Shown in pieces: positions 2,840-24,681 of a stretch of 34,342 nucleotides of DNA (its first letter is position 1; every line of letters starts with the position of its first letter). Below the pieces are notes generated by a model, which searched no databases, was not told the origin of the DNA, and saw only the letters and a program-made list of their open reading frames with translations. A program made the translations under genes and the position numbers. The DNA is from a virus. The stretch spans positions 1 through 34,342 of IMG/VR virus record IMGVR_UViG_3300022690_000187. One strand, 5' to 3'.

Positions 2840-3646
2840 ATGAACAATTTACCAGCCTTAAAAAATCAATTGGCAAACGTATCCATAAAGCAACGCTTTG
2901 AGGAAATGCTAGGGAAGAAGGCCCCTGGATTTATCTCTTCAATAATCAATGTTGTTAATGGAAATGATGCGTTATCAAAAGCAGATCCACAAAGTGTTAT
3001 AATGAGTGCTGCGGTAGCTGCAACATTAGATCTCCCAATAAATCCGAATTTAGGATTTGCTTACATCGTTCCTTATTCTGGAAAGGCTCAATTTCAAATG
3101 GGTTATAAGGGATTCATACAACTAGCAATGCGAACAGGCCAATATAAGACTATCAATGCATGTGAAGTGTATGAGGGAGAGCTTAAAAACTTCGATCGAT
3201 TAACCGGAATGATAGAGCTTGACTATGATGCTAAGAAATCAGAAAAAGTAATCGGTTACGTTGCGTACTTCTCAATGATAAACGGCTTTGAAAAAATGCT
3301 TTACATGACAAAAGACAAAATAGAGTCTCACGGCAAAGCCTATTCTAAATCATTCAGTAATTCGAATGGTAGATGGAAAAAAGACTTTGAGTCAATGGCA
3401 TTAAAAACAGTGCTGAAACTTCTGTTAAGTAAGTACGGCTTTCTATCTATCGATATGCAAACGGCTGTCACTTCTGATCAAGGAATATTATCTGATTTTG
3501 AAGGTAACAAAATAGAATTCCCAGACAACGAAGAGGCCAAATCTTTTGATGAGCATCAAGATGTATCGGCCAGCACGTCTGGAGAGTTATTCGAAAATGA
3601 ACATGGTGAAATGGTTGAAAAGCAAGACGATGGAACAGGGAAGTAA
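2840..3646 (+). CDS. recT: RecT-family single-strand DNA annealing protein
   Basis: A 268-residue protein that should anneal complementary single strands during phage recombination and replication. The RecT core is plain: KADPQSVIMSAAVAATLDLP, then NPNLGFAYIVPY, QMGYKGFIQLAMRTGQY and the C-terminal WKKDFESMALKTVLKLLLSKYG. The start follows an A-rich leader (AAAATAACT-ATG), the favoured context in this genome. The acidic C-terminal tail (about 225-268) resembles the charged tails through which annealing proteins contact partners. It overlaps the exonuclease gene by 17 bases, forming the classic recombinase-nuclease pair. Confidence 0.93.
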   Translation: MNNLPALKNQLANVSIKQRFEEMLGKKAPGFISSIINVVNGNDALSKADPQSVIMSAAVAATLDLPINPNLGFAYIVPYSGKAQFQMGYKGFIQLAMRTGQYKTINACEVYEGELKNFDRLTGMIELDYDAKKSEKVIGYVAYFSMINGFEKMLYMTKDKIESHGKAYSKSFSNSNGRWKKDFESMALKTVLKLLLSKYGFLSIDMQTAVTSDQGILSDFEGNKIEFPDNEEAKSFDEHQDVSASTSGELFENEHGEMVEKQDDGTGK

Positions 3647-7584: not shown

Positions 7585-7728
7585 ATGAAAGACAAACCAG
7601 AAAACCCACCAGTTTATATAGACACAAATAAATTACTGCCATACTTGGAAAGTAAGCAGGGTTTTACTCATATTCTATACCCACACTGTATTAATAAGTT
7701 AACAGAAAGGAGTAAAACCGATGAGTAG
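7585..7728 (+). CDS. Hypothetical 47-residue protein sharing a leader with the zinc-ribbon gene
   Basis: A small protein starting one base after the previous stop. Its first 25 bases match those of the gene at 6803 exactly, so both begin MKDKPENP, after which they diverge completely (PVYIDTNKLLPYLESKQGF here). It has no cysteine knuckles apart from a lone CINK. Its 3' end overlaps the YopX-like gene by eight bases. The shared start suggests duplication or recombination at a start region. Confidence 0.5.
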   Translation: MKDKPENPPVYIDTNKLLPYLESKQGFTHILYPHCINKLTERSKTDE

Positions 7729-8455
7729 GGAGATAACATTAAGATTCCATGTTTGGAACAAAAGTGAGAACCCAACAAAGAGAAAGGGTAAAGGATGGTA
7801 TAAGATGAGTGGGTATATTTTACAGTACGCACCATGTCATCCACATGCAAATAGTCGAGGATACGTACTAGAACACAGGCTTCTAATGGAAAATAGCTTG
7901 CATATGTACCTCCCAAAAGACGCAGTGGTACATCATGTAAATAACATACGTGACGACAATAGAATTGAGAACTTACAATATTTTCAAGAACAGTCTACAC
8001 ACGCAAAACATCATGACGTTGGTAAAAGAAATCCGAACGGTCAGTTTGTGGCTGAATCGAAAGAATTTTTGAATAAAAAGTTTAGGCTACGTAACAAAAA
8101 TACGGGCGCTATAAATGTGTTCACGCTACAAAAATTGATTTCAACTACATTCAGAAAAAGTCAGTTTGAATACATGGGCGAATGGACCGGACTCAAAGAC
8201 AAGAACGGTAAAGAGATATACGAAGGGGATATTTGTAGATTCTATCCATGTGAAGATGAGCCATTATTTTTTCATGGGTTAGCTTATATGAATAATGATG
8301 TTGTTGGAGGTTCTTGGAAAATCATTAAATGTGACAATGTTGATTCAGAAATGCCAGAGATTAAAGGAGAAGACTGTCTCGATAGCAGTTCTTTTTGGAA
8401 TGATGATTATGAAGTAATCGGAAACATACACGAAAACCCTGAACTACTTAAATAA
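7721..8455 (+). CDS. YopX-like protein with an HNH domain inserted
   Basis: A 244-residue composite. The start (MSREITLRFHVWNKS) looks like the YopX N-terminus, whose usual form is REIKFRVW. Residues 31-100 then form an HNH_3-type nuclease (RGYVLEHRLLMEN, and AVVHHVNNIRDDNRIENLQY with His71/His72 and Asn80). From about residue 149 the YopX C-terminal part returns: YMGEWTGLKDKNGKEIYEGD, and at the end YEVIGNIHENPELL. YopX proteins are common phage accessory proteins of unknown role. The HNH core looks intact, so the host gene may have gained an endonuclease in frame. Stop and next start overlap (TAATG). Confidence 0.75.
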   Translation: MSREITLRFHVWNKSENPTKRKGKGWYKMSGYILQYAPCHPHANSRGYVLEHRLLMENSLHMYLPKDAVVHHVNNIRDDNRIENLQYFQEQSTHAKHHDVGKRNPNGQFVAESKEFLNKKFRLRNKNTGAINVFTLQKLISTTFRKSQFEYMGEWTGLKDKNGKEIYEGDICRFYPCEDEPLFFHGLAYMNNDVVGGSWKIIKCDNVDSEMPEIKGEDCLDSSSFWNDDYEVIGNIHENPELLK

Positions 8456-9279
8456 TGGCAAAAGAACTCCCGTATTTCAAATTCGAACCCTCAGAGTGGG
8501 ACAATGGAAACATACAGATGTGTTCCAAAGAATCTAAAGGTTTGTTTATTGATTTGTGTTCGATGTACTGGTCAAGACTTGGAGAGATGCCTTATGCACT
8601 TGCATTGCAAAAGCATTGCAACGGTAGTAAAGATGCATTGCAAGACCTTGAAAACAATGAGATTATCAGGGTAGAAGATGGTCAAATAATCATTGAATTT
8701 CTTGATGAGCAGCTAGATGAGTTCCAGAAAACAAGTGAAAAAAGGCGTATGGCAGCTAATAAGAGGTGGTCGGATGCAAGTGCATTGCAAGTGCATTCCA
8801 AAAGCAATGCTATAAGAGTAGATAAGAAGAAAGAAGATAAGAGTAGAGTAGATAAGAAGAAAGAACAAGTAACAAAGAACAAAGAACAAGTAAACGAAAT
8901 CTGCAATTTCGCTTGGTCTCTTTTTCCAGAAGATGTTAGACCTGAAAAGAATGATATTAAAGAAATGAATCGATGGCGTGATTCGATGGAAAAACTTATC
9001 AGGATTGACGGCAAAGAACCGACAGAAATTAAAAAGGTTGTTGCCTGGGCAAGAAAAGACGAATGGTGGCAATCAAGATTCCTTAGTCCGCTAAAATTGA
9101 GAAAGAAAAATAAAGACGGAATTAAATATTATGATTATTTCAACGAAAACAGAAAAAATGGAAACCACAGAACCAAAATCGATACAAAAACTATCTCCGA
9201 CTTTGATCCCGACTCCTACTCAGACTTTAAAGTCGCTGGAGCTAGTGATAGATCGAGCGATGAAGGAAGTCGATCATGA
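8455..9279 (+). CDS. Replication initiator, O-like (DUF4373/DnaD-like)
   Basis: A 274-residue protein in three parts. The N-terminal domain (YFKFEPSEWDNGNIQMCSKE, SKGLFIDLCSMYWSRLG, to about 90) matches the DUF4373/Lin1244-type winged helix of phage initiators. A charged, repetitive linker follows (about 105-145). The C-terminal domain (about 148-225) has FPEDVRPEKN, KVVAWARKDEWWQSRFLSPL and a final YDYF, like replisome organisers that recruit a helicase loader. The next gene is a DnaC-like ATPase, which supports the role. The coding sequence holds clustered TGCATTGCAA repeats and a purine-rich run, so the origin may lie inside the gene, as in phage lambda O. Confidence 0.8.
   Translation: MAKELPYFKFEPSEWDNGNIQMCSKESKGLFIDLCSMYWSRLGEMPYALALQKHCNGSKDALQDLENNEIIRVEDGQIIIEFLDEQLDEFQKTSEKRRMAANKRWSDASALQVHSKSNAIRVDKKKEDKSRVDKKKEQVTKNKEQVNEICNFAWSLFPEDVRPEKNDIKEMNRWRDSMEKLIRIDGKEPTEIKKVVAWARKDEWWQSRFLSPLKLRKKNKDGIKYYDYFNENRKNGNHRTKIDTKTISDFDPDSYSDFKVAGASDRSSDEGSRS
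8601..8900 (+). other. Candidate replication origin: phased iterons and purine tract
   Basis: Copies of TGCATTGCAA lie at 8601-8610, 8612-8621 (first base A), 8634-8643, 8781-8790 and 8792-8801 (one mismatch), with an inverted GCAATGC at 8804-8810. Start-to-start spacings are 11, 22, 147 and 11 bp, close to whole helical turns. They occur in more than one codon frame (GCA-TTG-CAA and CAT-TGC-AA), so they are not a protein repeat. Immediately downstream, about 8814-8900 is a nearly pure A/G run containing an imperfect direct repeat of GAGTAGATAAGAAGAAAGAA, a plausible unwinding element. The arrangement parallels the lambda origin inside gene O. Confidence 0.6.
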
Positions 9280-9961
9280 CAAGATTGCGCTAAAAGTGAT
9301 TAGATGTGAGGCTCAAATTGAAGCTCTCATAAAAGACAAGGAATTGTATGACAGAACAAGGCCCATTGAATACGTTCATATATCCGGTAAAGAATTACAT
9401 TCATACTTTTTACAGGACTACCAAAAAATGAACGGAACGATCATTCACAACCAGGAATGGAATCACTGTGTTTCTCAAATTGCTGAATACATAGCACAAG
9501 GTAAGCCCGTGATTATGTACGGTACAACTGGAGTTGGAAAAACTAGCATCATGCAATCATTTGGAAGGGTGCTGTCAATCCTTAAAAATCCGAATCATCA
9601 AGAATTTATAACTAAACCAGCAAAAGAGTTGGTCGATGAATACAAAAAGGGGATGGATGTAAACGCTACCTATTCAAAGCCTTTAAATATTGGCCTGTTC
9701 AAAAACGCTGGTTTGTTCATTGATGACATAGGCACTGAAGAGCAGGGTATTTCGTTTGGGTCCAAGTCTGATGTTATTGGAGATCTGATATTAGCGATCT
9801 ACGCAAGGCATGACATGAAAAAGATGGTAAGCTTTTCAACCAACCTAAGTGCAAAAGACTTAAAAGAAAGATACGGTCAAAGGGTGTACGGTAGACTAGT
9901 TGAGATGTGCACAGCAGTTGTATTTCCTGAATCAATACCAGATTTTAGATTGAATAAATAA
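9158..9961 (+). CDS. DnaC-like AAA+ helicase loader
   Basis: A 267-residue ATPase expected to load the replicative helicase at the origin. It has Walker A MYGTTGVGKTS (residues about 122-130), Walker B LFIDDIG (about 186-192), a sensor-like FSTNLS, and the arginine-rich ERYGQRVYGRLVEMC near the end that is typical of DnaC/IstB proteins. The N-terminus is a Pro/Thr-rich linker that overlaps the initiator gene by 122 bases in another frame. The frame is open from an ATG at 9131, while an ATG at 9260 would reduce the overlap to 20 bases; 9158 follows the most A-rich leader. The start is therefore uncertain, the function is not. Confidence 0.85.
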   Translation: METTEPKSIQKLSPTLIPTPTQTLKSLELVIDRAMKEVDHDKIALKVIRCEAQIEALIKDKELYDRTRPIEYVHISGKELHSYFLQDYQKMNGTIIHNQEWNHCVSQIAEYIAQGKPVIMYGTTGVGKTSIMQSFGRVLSILKNPNHQEFITKPAKELVDEYKKGMDVNATYSKPLNIGLFKNAGLFIDDIGTEEQGISFGSKSDVIGDLILAIYARHDMKKMVSFSTNLSAKDLKERYGQRVYGRLVEMCTAVVFPESIPDFRLNK

Positions 9962-23760: not shown

Positions 23761-24681
23761 ATGACATTTTGTAAATGTTCCGCAACGTTAAGTAACACCG
23801 GAGCGCCAAGTAATCAAAGAATAGTAAAGGATGGCGCCAAGCTTATCGCGGTGCTCCTAAAAGCTGATGACGGAACATCGAACGTCATTCTGGATTCCGA
23901 AACAGTTGATCAATCATTCGTGGATGGTAAAATCAATGAAGTGGATGCAACAAAACGATGGTATCCTATCGGAGAATTTAAGAGCGTTGAAGACGTTAGA
24001 GCAGATGCTATAACTGAAAGCTTCACTGATGGTTCTAGTGGAATCACACAGCAAGGGGTAAGATCTTTTTTAGGTTGGCTTGTAGACTTCGCGCCTAAGT
24101 ATATTGAAAATCTCGAAGCTTTTTCATGTAACAAGTTTGGTCTATTTATCATTGATGATTGTGGAAACCTACAAGGCTCTATCTCTTCAGATGGCACAAA
24201 GTTGAAGCCAATTAGAGTAAATGAACTATCTTGGAATCCAACATTTGCAAAGCAATCAGCTACAGAAAAATCTAAAGTGATACTAGGATTTGAATTCTCT
24301 CAGTTAGAAGCAGATTCAAACCTAAGAGTACTCGATGAAACAGAAGTTACAGCCGATTTATTGGATGTCGAAGGACTTATAGAGCTTGATGGAGTTCAAA
24401 CAAGCATCACAACCACTGGATTTGTGACAGCAATTACAGTGGATTTTGATGCAGACTTTACCCCCATTAAATCTATTGGCCTTGTGATTACAGATTTCAT
24501 TCTGTTCAACACCACAACCAATTTAGCGATTGTTATTACTTCAGTAGTAGAAGCACCCGAAGGAACCTACACTTTTGTTATTCCTATACAGACATCAGCA
24601 GACATATTGAGATTAACAAACGACAGAACCACTGGGAATAAGCCAGGGTTTGCTCTTCTTGAACTTATAACCATACCATAA
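23761..24681 (+). CDS. Probable major tail (tube) protein
   Basis: A 306-residue protein starting TFCKCSATLSNTGAPSNQRI, a form of N-terminus (cysteine-rich phrase ending in a Gly-Pro-type turn) seen in structural proteins of Bacteroidota phages. Strands such as IRVNELSWNPTFAKQSATEK and the C-terminal beta sandwich (GFVTAITVDFDADFTPIKSI) suit a tail-tube subunit with an extra domain. Position between connectors and tape measure, and the probable separate promoter, fit a highly expressed tail protein. The assignment is by position and style. Confidence 0.5.
   Translation: MTFCKCSATLSNTGAPSNQRIVKDGAKLIAVLLKADDGTSNVILDSETVDQSFVDGKINEVDATKRWYPIGEFKSVEDVRADAITESFTDGSSGITQQGVRSFLGWLVDFAPKYIENLEAFSCNKFGLFIIDDCGNLQGSISSDGTKLKPIRVNELSWNPTFAKQSATEKSKVILGFEFSQLEADSNLRVLDETEVTADLLDVEGLIELDGVQTSITTTGFVTAITVDFDADFTPIKSIGLVITDFILFNTTTNLAIVITSVVEAPEGTYTFVIPIQTSADILRLTNDRTTGNKPGFALLELITIP

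Follow-up and report, generated by a model that had tools for sequence, protein, structure and literature searches.

A probable replication origin inside a phage initiator gene: conserved layout, divergent iterons

Replication of this virus very probably begins inside the gene for its own initiator. The window—the whole stretch of DNA analysed, 34,342 bases long, which is a complete IMG/VR virus record—carries in that gene two clusters of short repeats (iterons) followed by a purine-rich tract, and comparison of sequences leads us to read the region as a theta-type origin where the initiator binds the iterons, melts the tract and recruits the helicase loader. The case for an intragenic origin is strong because the layout is conserved among relatives while the iteron sequences diverge. 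We infer initiator binding, tract melting, helicase loading and replication in the following way. The 8455 protein, as dimers or oligomers, would bind half-sites 11/22 bp apart in cluster 2 and, in subfamily A, to which this initiator belongs, half-sites in cluster 1 as well, with the bound molecules all facing one side of the DNA. Once bound, the initiator would strain and melt the adjacent, pentamer-repeated tract (8811–8890), and its C-terminal part would recruit the DnaC-like loader, the product of the next gene, and hence the replicative helicase.

The novelty would lie in the conservation of an 11-bp-phased array and a pentamer tract across Bacteroidota phage initiators, in the pairing of arrays, one of them within HTH-coding sequence, and in the coupling of a protein segment to iteron type. 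No description of such origins in aquatic Bacteroidota phages was found in the open-access literature. The layout offers a sequence-only route to origins in this large and little-studied group of phages, and it opens to experiment the general question of how initiators can diverge along with their binding sites and yet stay matched. The features discussed are as follows.

8455–9279, + strand: initiator gene, 274 aa, with a wHTH N-domain, an array-encoded linker and an O/DnaD-like C-terminal part (PHROG profiles, AlphaFold)
8593–8655, + strand: predicted HTH helices 2 and 3, codons 47–67, overlapping iteron cluster 1 (DSSP of the model)
8594–8643, + strand: iteron cluster 1, copies at 8601/8612/8634, 11/22-bp phased (motif scans)
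8716–8775, + strand: proposed iteron-reading segment, codons 88–107, at the end of long helix 81–112 (tracking of segment and iteron type)
8743–8745, + strand: codon 97 (R), within the proposed iteron-reading segment
8774–8811, + strand: iteron cluster 2, copies at 8781/8792 and an inverted partial copy at 8803–8811, 11-bp phased (motif scans)
8811–8890, + strand: purine-rich, low-stability tract, a putative unwinding element, encoding the linker RVDKKKEDKS, with 5/10/15-nt periodicity (composition, stability)
9131–9961, + strand: DnaC-like AAA+ helicase loader gene, the 3' neighbour of the initiator gene (phrog_50, 2.8e-20)

Iterons and the purine-rich tract

Copies of TGCATTGCAA with no more than one mismatch occur at 8601, 8612, 8634, 8781 and 8792, spaced by 11, 22, 147 and 11 bp and occupying two codon frames, and an inverted partial copy, AGCAATGCT, lies at 8803–8811. 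The first-pass annotation had counted five repeats of TGCATTGCAA type, plus a partial copy in inverted orientation, with spacings of 11, 22 and 147 bp, and all of these are found, between 8601 and 8811. It had also taken the use of different codon frames as a sign of selection on the DNA, and synonymous shuffles of the initiator gene support this. In 2000 such shuffles, which kept the protein and the codon usage, iteron copies averaged 0.8 and never exceeded 4, versus 5 observed; near-identical 10-mer pairs averaged 3.6, with a maximum of 19, versus 36 observed. The locus ranks first in the whole window both for clustered 9-mer pairs (26 vs a mean of 1.0) and for 11/22-bp phasing (8755–8782, 8584–8602). 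By the measure of these shuffles and ranks, the iteron repeats are selected at the DNA level.

The iteron signal resides in clustering, not in genome-wide frequency: at two mismatches or fewer there is no excess of the motif across the genome, 42 matches being observed and 54 expected. At one mismatch or fewer, the 34-kb window contains seven TGCATTGCAA sites, six in the initiator gene and one at 24245. This lone palindromic match (TGCTTTGCAA/TGCAAAGCAA, 24245–24255), distant from the origin, is probably a product of chance.

The tract that follows cluster 2 had been described as an A/G-only region of some 90 bases. That was too strong: 8811–8890 is ~84% purine, its A and G being interrupted by scattered T and, toward the 3' end, by some C, and unbroken stretches of purines all stay below 20 nt. 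Its purine fraction is the highest in the whole window. The accompanying suggestion, that a region resembling an unwinding element comes after the repeats, fits the stability profile, in which the tract is the least stable 90–150 bp of the initiator gene and falls at the 2.3–5.7 percentile of least stable sequence in the genome. Plasmid Rep proteins bind the repeats of a single-stranded unwinding element strand-specifically (PMC4081077), and our pentamer-phased tract may be an analogue of such repeated single-strand-binding elements, the plasmid DUE repeats for example (PMC4081077). GC skew, put forward earlier as a check on the origin, provides no signal of one: its sign is positive over the whole window, and after detrending the extremes of the window disagree with those of Leeuwenhoekiella phage Arctus_1.

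Might the repeats be a mere by-product, of a low-complexity linker peptide or of slippage during replication, with no function as DNA? The linker is charged and repetitive, and a 30-bp repeat within the tract (8815/8845) could have arisen by slippage. Periods of 11 and 5 nt, however, are not multiples of 3 and so cannot stem from a repeated peptide; shuffles that preserve the protein never yield the repeats; and in relatives with two separate arrays in one gene, the arrays diverge in step, as described below. We find such an origin of the repeats scarcely credible.

The initiator, its neighbours and known origins

Among PHROG profiles, the initiator matches DnaD-like proteins (phrog_2514, 1.8e-13), replisome organizers (phrog_4880, 2.9e-8) and O-like proteins (phrog_277, 1.6e-5), the O-like matches being confined to residues 121–219. 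BLASTP aligns residues 174–218 with residues 220–264 of lambda O (E 4e-5), a match that is C-terminal only. The AlphaFold model has a confident winged helix at residues 25–79 and then a long helix, 81–112; by DSSP of the model, HTH helices 2 and 3 span residues 47–54 and 60–67. Foldseek ranks the DnaD NTD (2vn2) first, but with an E of 0.1. Structural alignment places DnaD/RepA chains at Z 6.0–6.4, and model residues 1–82 align to the RepA-type initiators 4pql and 5kbj at Z 6.2–6.4. These fold matches are middling, and no more than suggestive of a likeness between the N-domain and the winged helices of DnaD/RepA-type proteins. A Pfam search of the initiator protein returned no match, to the RepA_N family or any other; for DUF1376 (PF07120) the protein again gave none, and relatives gave weak ones in 13 of 46 cases (best E 4.8e-4). 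The initiator profile matched none of the sequences of solved structures.

The next gene is a helicase loader gene, as had been noted at first pass, and of DnaC-like type; matches of its protein to the PRK08116/PRK06835 and DnaI-like models fall below the cut-off. As listed, the loader ORF starts 149 bases within the initiator gene, at 9131; translation more plausibly begins, and perhaps really does begin, at 9260, where there is an ATG in frame. In some relatives the initiator gene adjoins a primase-helicase gene rather than a loader. On the other side, the gene at 7721–8455, which overlaps the initiator start codon by 1 base, encodes an HNH_3 endonuclease domain fused to a YopX domain. The host of the virus is probably a flavobacterium, because the nearest isolate relatives of the initiator gene belong to phages that infect Leeuwenhoekiella, Flavobacterium and Cellulophaga.

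The arrangement is that of lambda ori: in both, iterons lie midway along the initiator gene, a purine- and AT-rich tract adjoins them on the 3' side and the loader gene comes next. In lambda O, taken as a control, the annotated iterons are followed by the part of the gene that is richest in purines and in A+T. The two initiators also share, by the weak match at residues 174–218, an O-type C-terminal domain. Lambda, however, has four 18-bp iterons 20–24 bp apart in one cluster, whereas the window has units of 10–11 bp in two clusters, one of which lies inside HTH-coding sequence. In sequence the N-domain does not match lambda O, and where lambda has P the window encodes a loader of the DnaC-type AAA+ kind (phrog_50). 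The term 'lambda-like', which the first-pass annotation applied, suits the layout and, to a weak degree, the C-terminal domain, but does not extend to iteron size (18 bp in lambda), N-domain sequence or type of loader (P in lambda). As we see it, the region would work like lambda ori, the initiator is, to judge by its N-domain, probably not a member of the O family, and iteron size and loader set the system apart from lambda O as defined.

Other systems are alike in other ways. In SPP1, oriL lies inside gene 38, which encodes the replisome organizer G38P, and comprises direct repeats and an AT-rich unwinding element (PMC6316719). An origin within the initiator gene, putative in our case, and a separate helicase loader are common to both, but SPP1 has a second origin (oriR), whereas a scan of the 34-kb window finds no second cluster of the TGCATTGCAA iteron elsewhere. 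In the RepA_N plasmid pSK41, the Rep boxes are central in rep, and the linker encoded by the origin is dispensable for the protein (PMC5703833). pSK41 Rep and the RepA_N plasmids share with the window a wHTH N-domain, here a predicted one, central intragenic sites and an origin-encoded linker; the N-domain of pSK41 Rep is reported to bind the boxes (PMC5703833), whereas in the family described here iteron type tracks the segment after the N-domain. The rep gene of phage TP901-1 likewise encodes a DnaD-like initiator and has a repeat array in its linker-coding part, but that array (nt ~300–390) has a period of 15 bp rather than 11, and the protein backbone differs. With its phased direct repeats and the easily unwound tract beside them, the region probably belongs to a broad kind, the intragenic iteron origins of phage and plasmid initiators.

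Layout and iterons among relatives

The relatives assembled comprise 170 non-redundant genes from viral and bacterial contigs, with four N-domain backbones, A to D, of which A is the subfamily of the window initiator. Bacterial genomes scanned for prophage copies contributed only three relatives. Common to the 170 is a layout: an 11-bp-phased array at the same codons, and then a pentamer-phased purine tract. Lag spectra, computed against a synonymous null on 140 of the eventual 170 genes, have lags of 11, 22 and 44 bp at nt 300–395, the 11- and 22-bp periodicity being present there in all four backbones, with z up to 21. At nt 135–215, the region of cluster 1, there is an 11/22-bp excess in backbones A and B only; the remaining N-domain and control regions have no comparable periodicity by the same test. 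The tract has a periodicity of 5/10/15 nt in A, C and D, weakest at 15 in C. Its Ile codons are biased to ATA in relatives (0.92–0.93 vs 0.35–0.44 outside, in A and C), and its Lys codons to AAG.

Iteron sequence varies with lineage. Backbone A has GCANNTGC and GCGNNCGC, B has TAGCAATGCTA, C has AACCGAAA/AAGCGAA types and D has TTCAACA/TGTTGAA, and there are others besides. Conservation of the repeats, on which the original proposal depended, is therefore found in the 11-bp-phased layout, which is kept, but not in the iteron sequence, which is lineage-specific.

Sites for the initiator need not be sites for starting replication; the arrays could serve chiefly in autoregulation of the gene's own transcription. 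Many Rep proteins autoregulate, sites in the 5' half of the gene could block its transcription, and the shuffle and lag data reveal sites at the DNA level, not their function. Yet the sites lie 140–360 nt inside the coding region rather than at a promoter; a low-stability, pentamer-phased tract such as A, C and D possess is predicted by an origin and not by an operator; and the gene is that of an initiator, adjoining a loader or, in relatives, a primase-helicase. We regard autoregulation as quite improbable for the arrays' chief role, and take them to be parts of an origin.

In backbone A, array 1 overlaps the codons of predicted wHTH helices 2–3 (residues 47–67) and array 2 lies in the linker. 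Within genomes, the similarity of cluster 1 to cluster 2 is 16.1; permuting the pairing lowers it to 11.7 (5000 permutations, maximum 13.4), and the synonymous null gives 8.5. Half-site classes of the two arrays agree in 53 of the 54 assignable genomes (GG 34, AA 19, AG 1), three further genomes being unassigned in cluster 1, and the central dinucleotide is common to both arrays in 27 of 32 (20.5 expected). On a tree of flanking codons, the half-site class changed four times, and the independent pairs agree in 4/4 cases, which are too few for significance. Going by these comparisons, where a second array sits in the HTH-coding part both arrays diverge together.

The protein segment that tracks iteron type

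As a predictor of similarity between arrays, the segment after the wHTH comes first (beta 0.47), ahead of the N-domain (0.27). The C-terminal domain was considered as the part that travels with the array and was discarded, its beta being 0.03. In backbones C and D combined, where the HTH region is free of iterons, only residues 93–104 exceed the permutation limit (0.65 vs 0.54), and in D alone the same residues score 0.56 versus a limit of 0.35. The C and D backbones lend no support to helix 3 of the wHTH as sole reader of the iterons. HTH residues do correlate with the array in A and B as well, but there they are themselves partly iteron-encoded. On these statistics, the segment after the wHTH, residues ~93–104, whose codons lie immediately 5' of the array, is the best correlate of iteron type within the initiator.

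Pairing of segment and array holds across different backbones, nearly one to one. In classes that were set after inspection, GGRP goes with AACC in 54/54 genes and GKASA with CAAC in 16/16; AxxRW goes with GC(A/G) in 68/72, KGGL with TAGC in 13/15 and YW with ACGT in 2/2. Among AxxRW genes, all 45 with Asn at residue 97 have GCG iterons and all 19 with Arg have GCA, never the reverse, and several of those with Ala97 have mixed arrays. The window initiator, with Arg97 and GCA arrays, fits the rule. A tblastn search of isolate phages with the consensus segment-array peptide found no match.

We hold it an even question whether the iterons are read mainly by this basic segment, and not by the recognition helix of the wHTH, with reader, sites and tract forming one exchangeable cassette. 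Evenly poised, too, is the proposal that a cassette of ~150–200 bp is swapped between backbones, specificity changing in one step, and that Arg or Asn at residue 97 sets GCA versus GCG. If true, initiator and origin would stay matched for a simple reason, the reader being encoded beside the sites that it reads, and what this predicts for residue 97 and for swaps of the segment could be tested at little cost.

The coupling is confounded: segment and array are adjacent DNA, and a stretch that hitch-hikes with its neighbour in recombination can look functionally coupled to it. Less probable, in our view, is a reading in which recombination at the conserved FLDEQ codons simply carries neighbouring DNA along and it is the wHTH that reads the iterons. 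Exchange of modules among initiator genes is evident from the sequences of the Cellulophaga phages phi19:1 and Nekkels_1, whose initiator genes are near-identical in the 3' half and differ in N-parts and arrays, with the recombination join directly after the purine tract (L013 ~2950–3240, L014 ~3040–3340). Independent changes of segment and array that have branch support number only 2–4, moreover, and tree-based sign tests are underpowered. Against this, D backbones that are similar to one another bear arrays of several types, every type being accompanied by the segment that matches it, and this disfavours the wHTH as reader, because a swap that left the wHTH behind should break the origin. 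Residue 97, besides, sorts GCA from GCG iterons without exception, and the C-terminal part does not track the array.

A few relatives depart from the common pattern. One (L324:2001–2400) joins an A-type N-domain and a KGGE segment to an unrelated continuation, has no iteron array and, from its sequence, may not be an initiator. Three C-type backbones with a GNLKRWN segment (L187, L192, L193) have, in place of the usual 11-bp array, CTAAAGTATCG-like repeats scattered farther downstream. GKKGAxIKAM is a further segment type, with an 11-bp array of its own, CCACCCTTAAA/CCACCCTTCAA (L400:1756–2130, L404:2001–2380).
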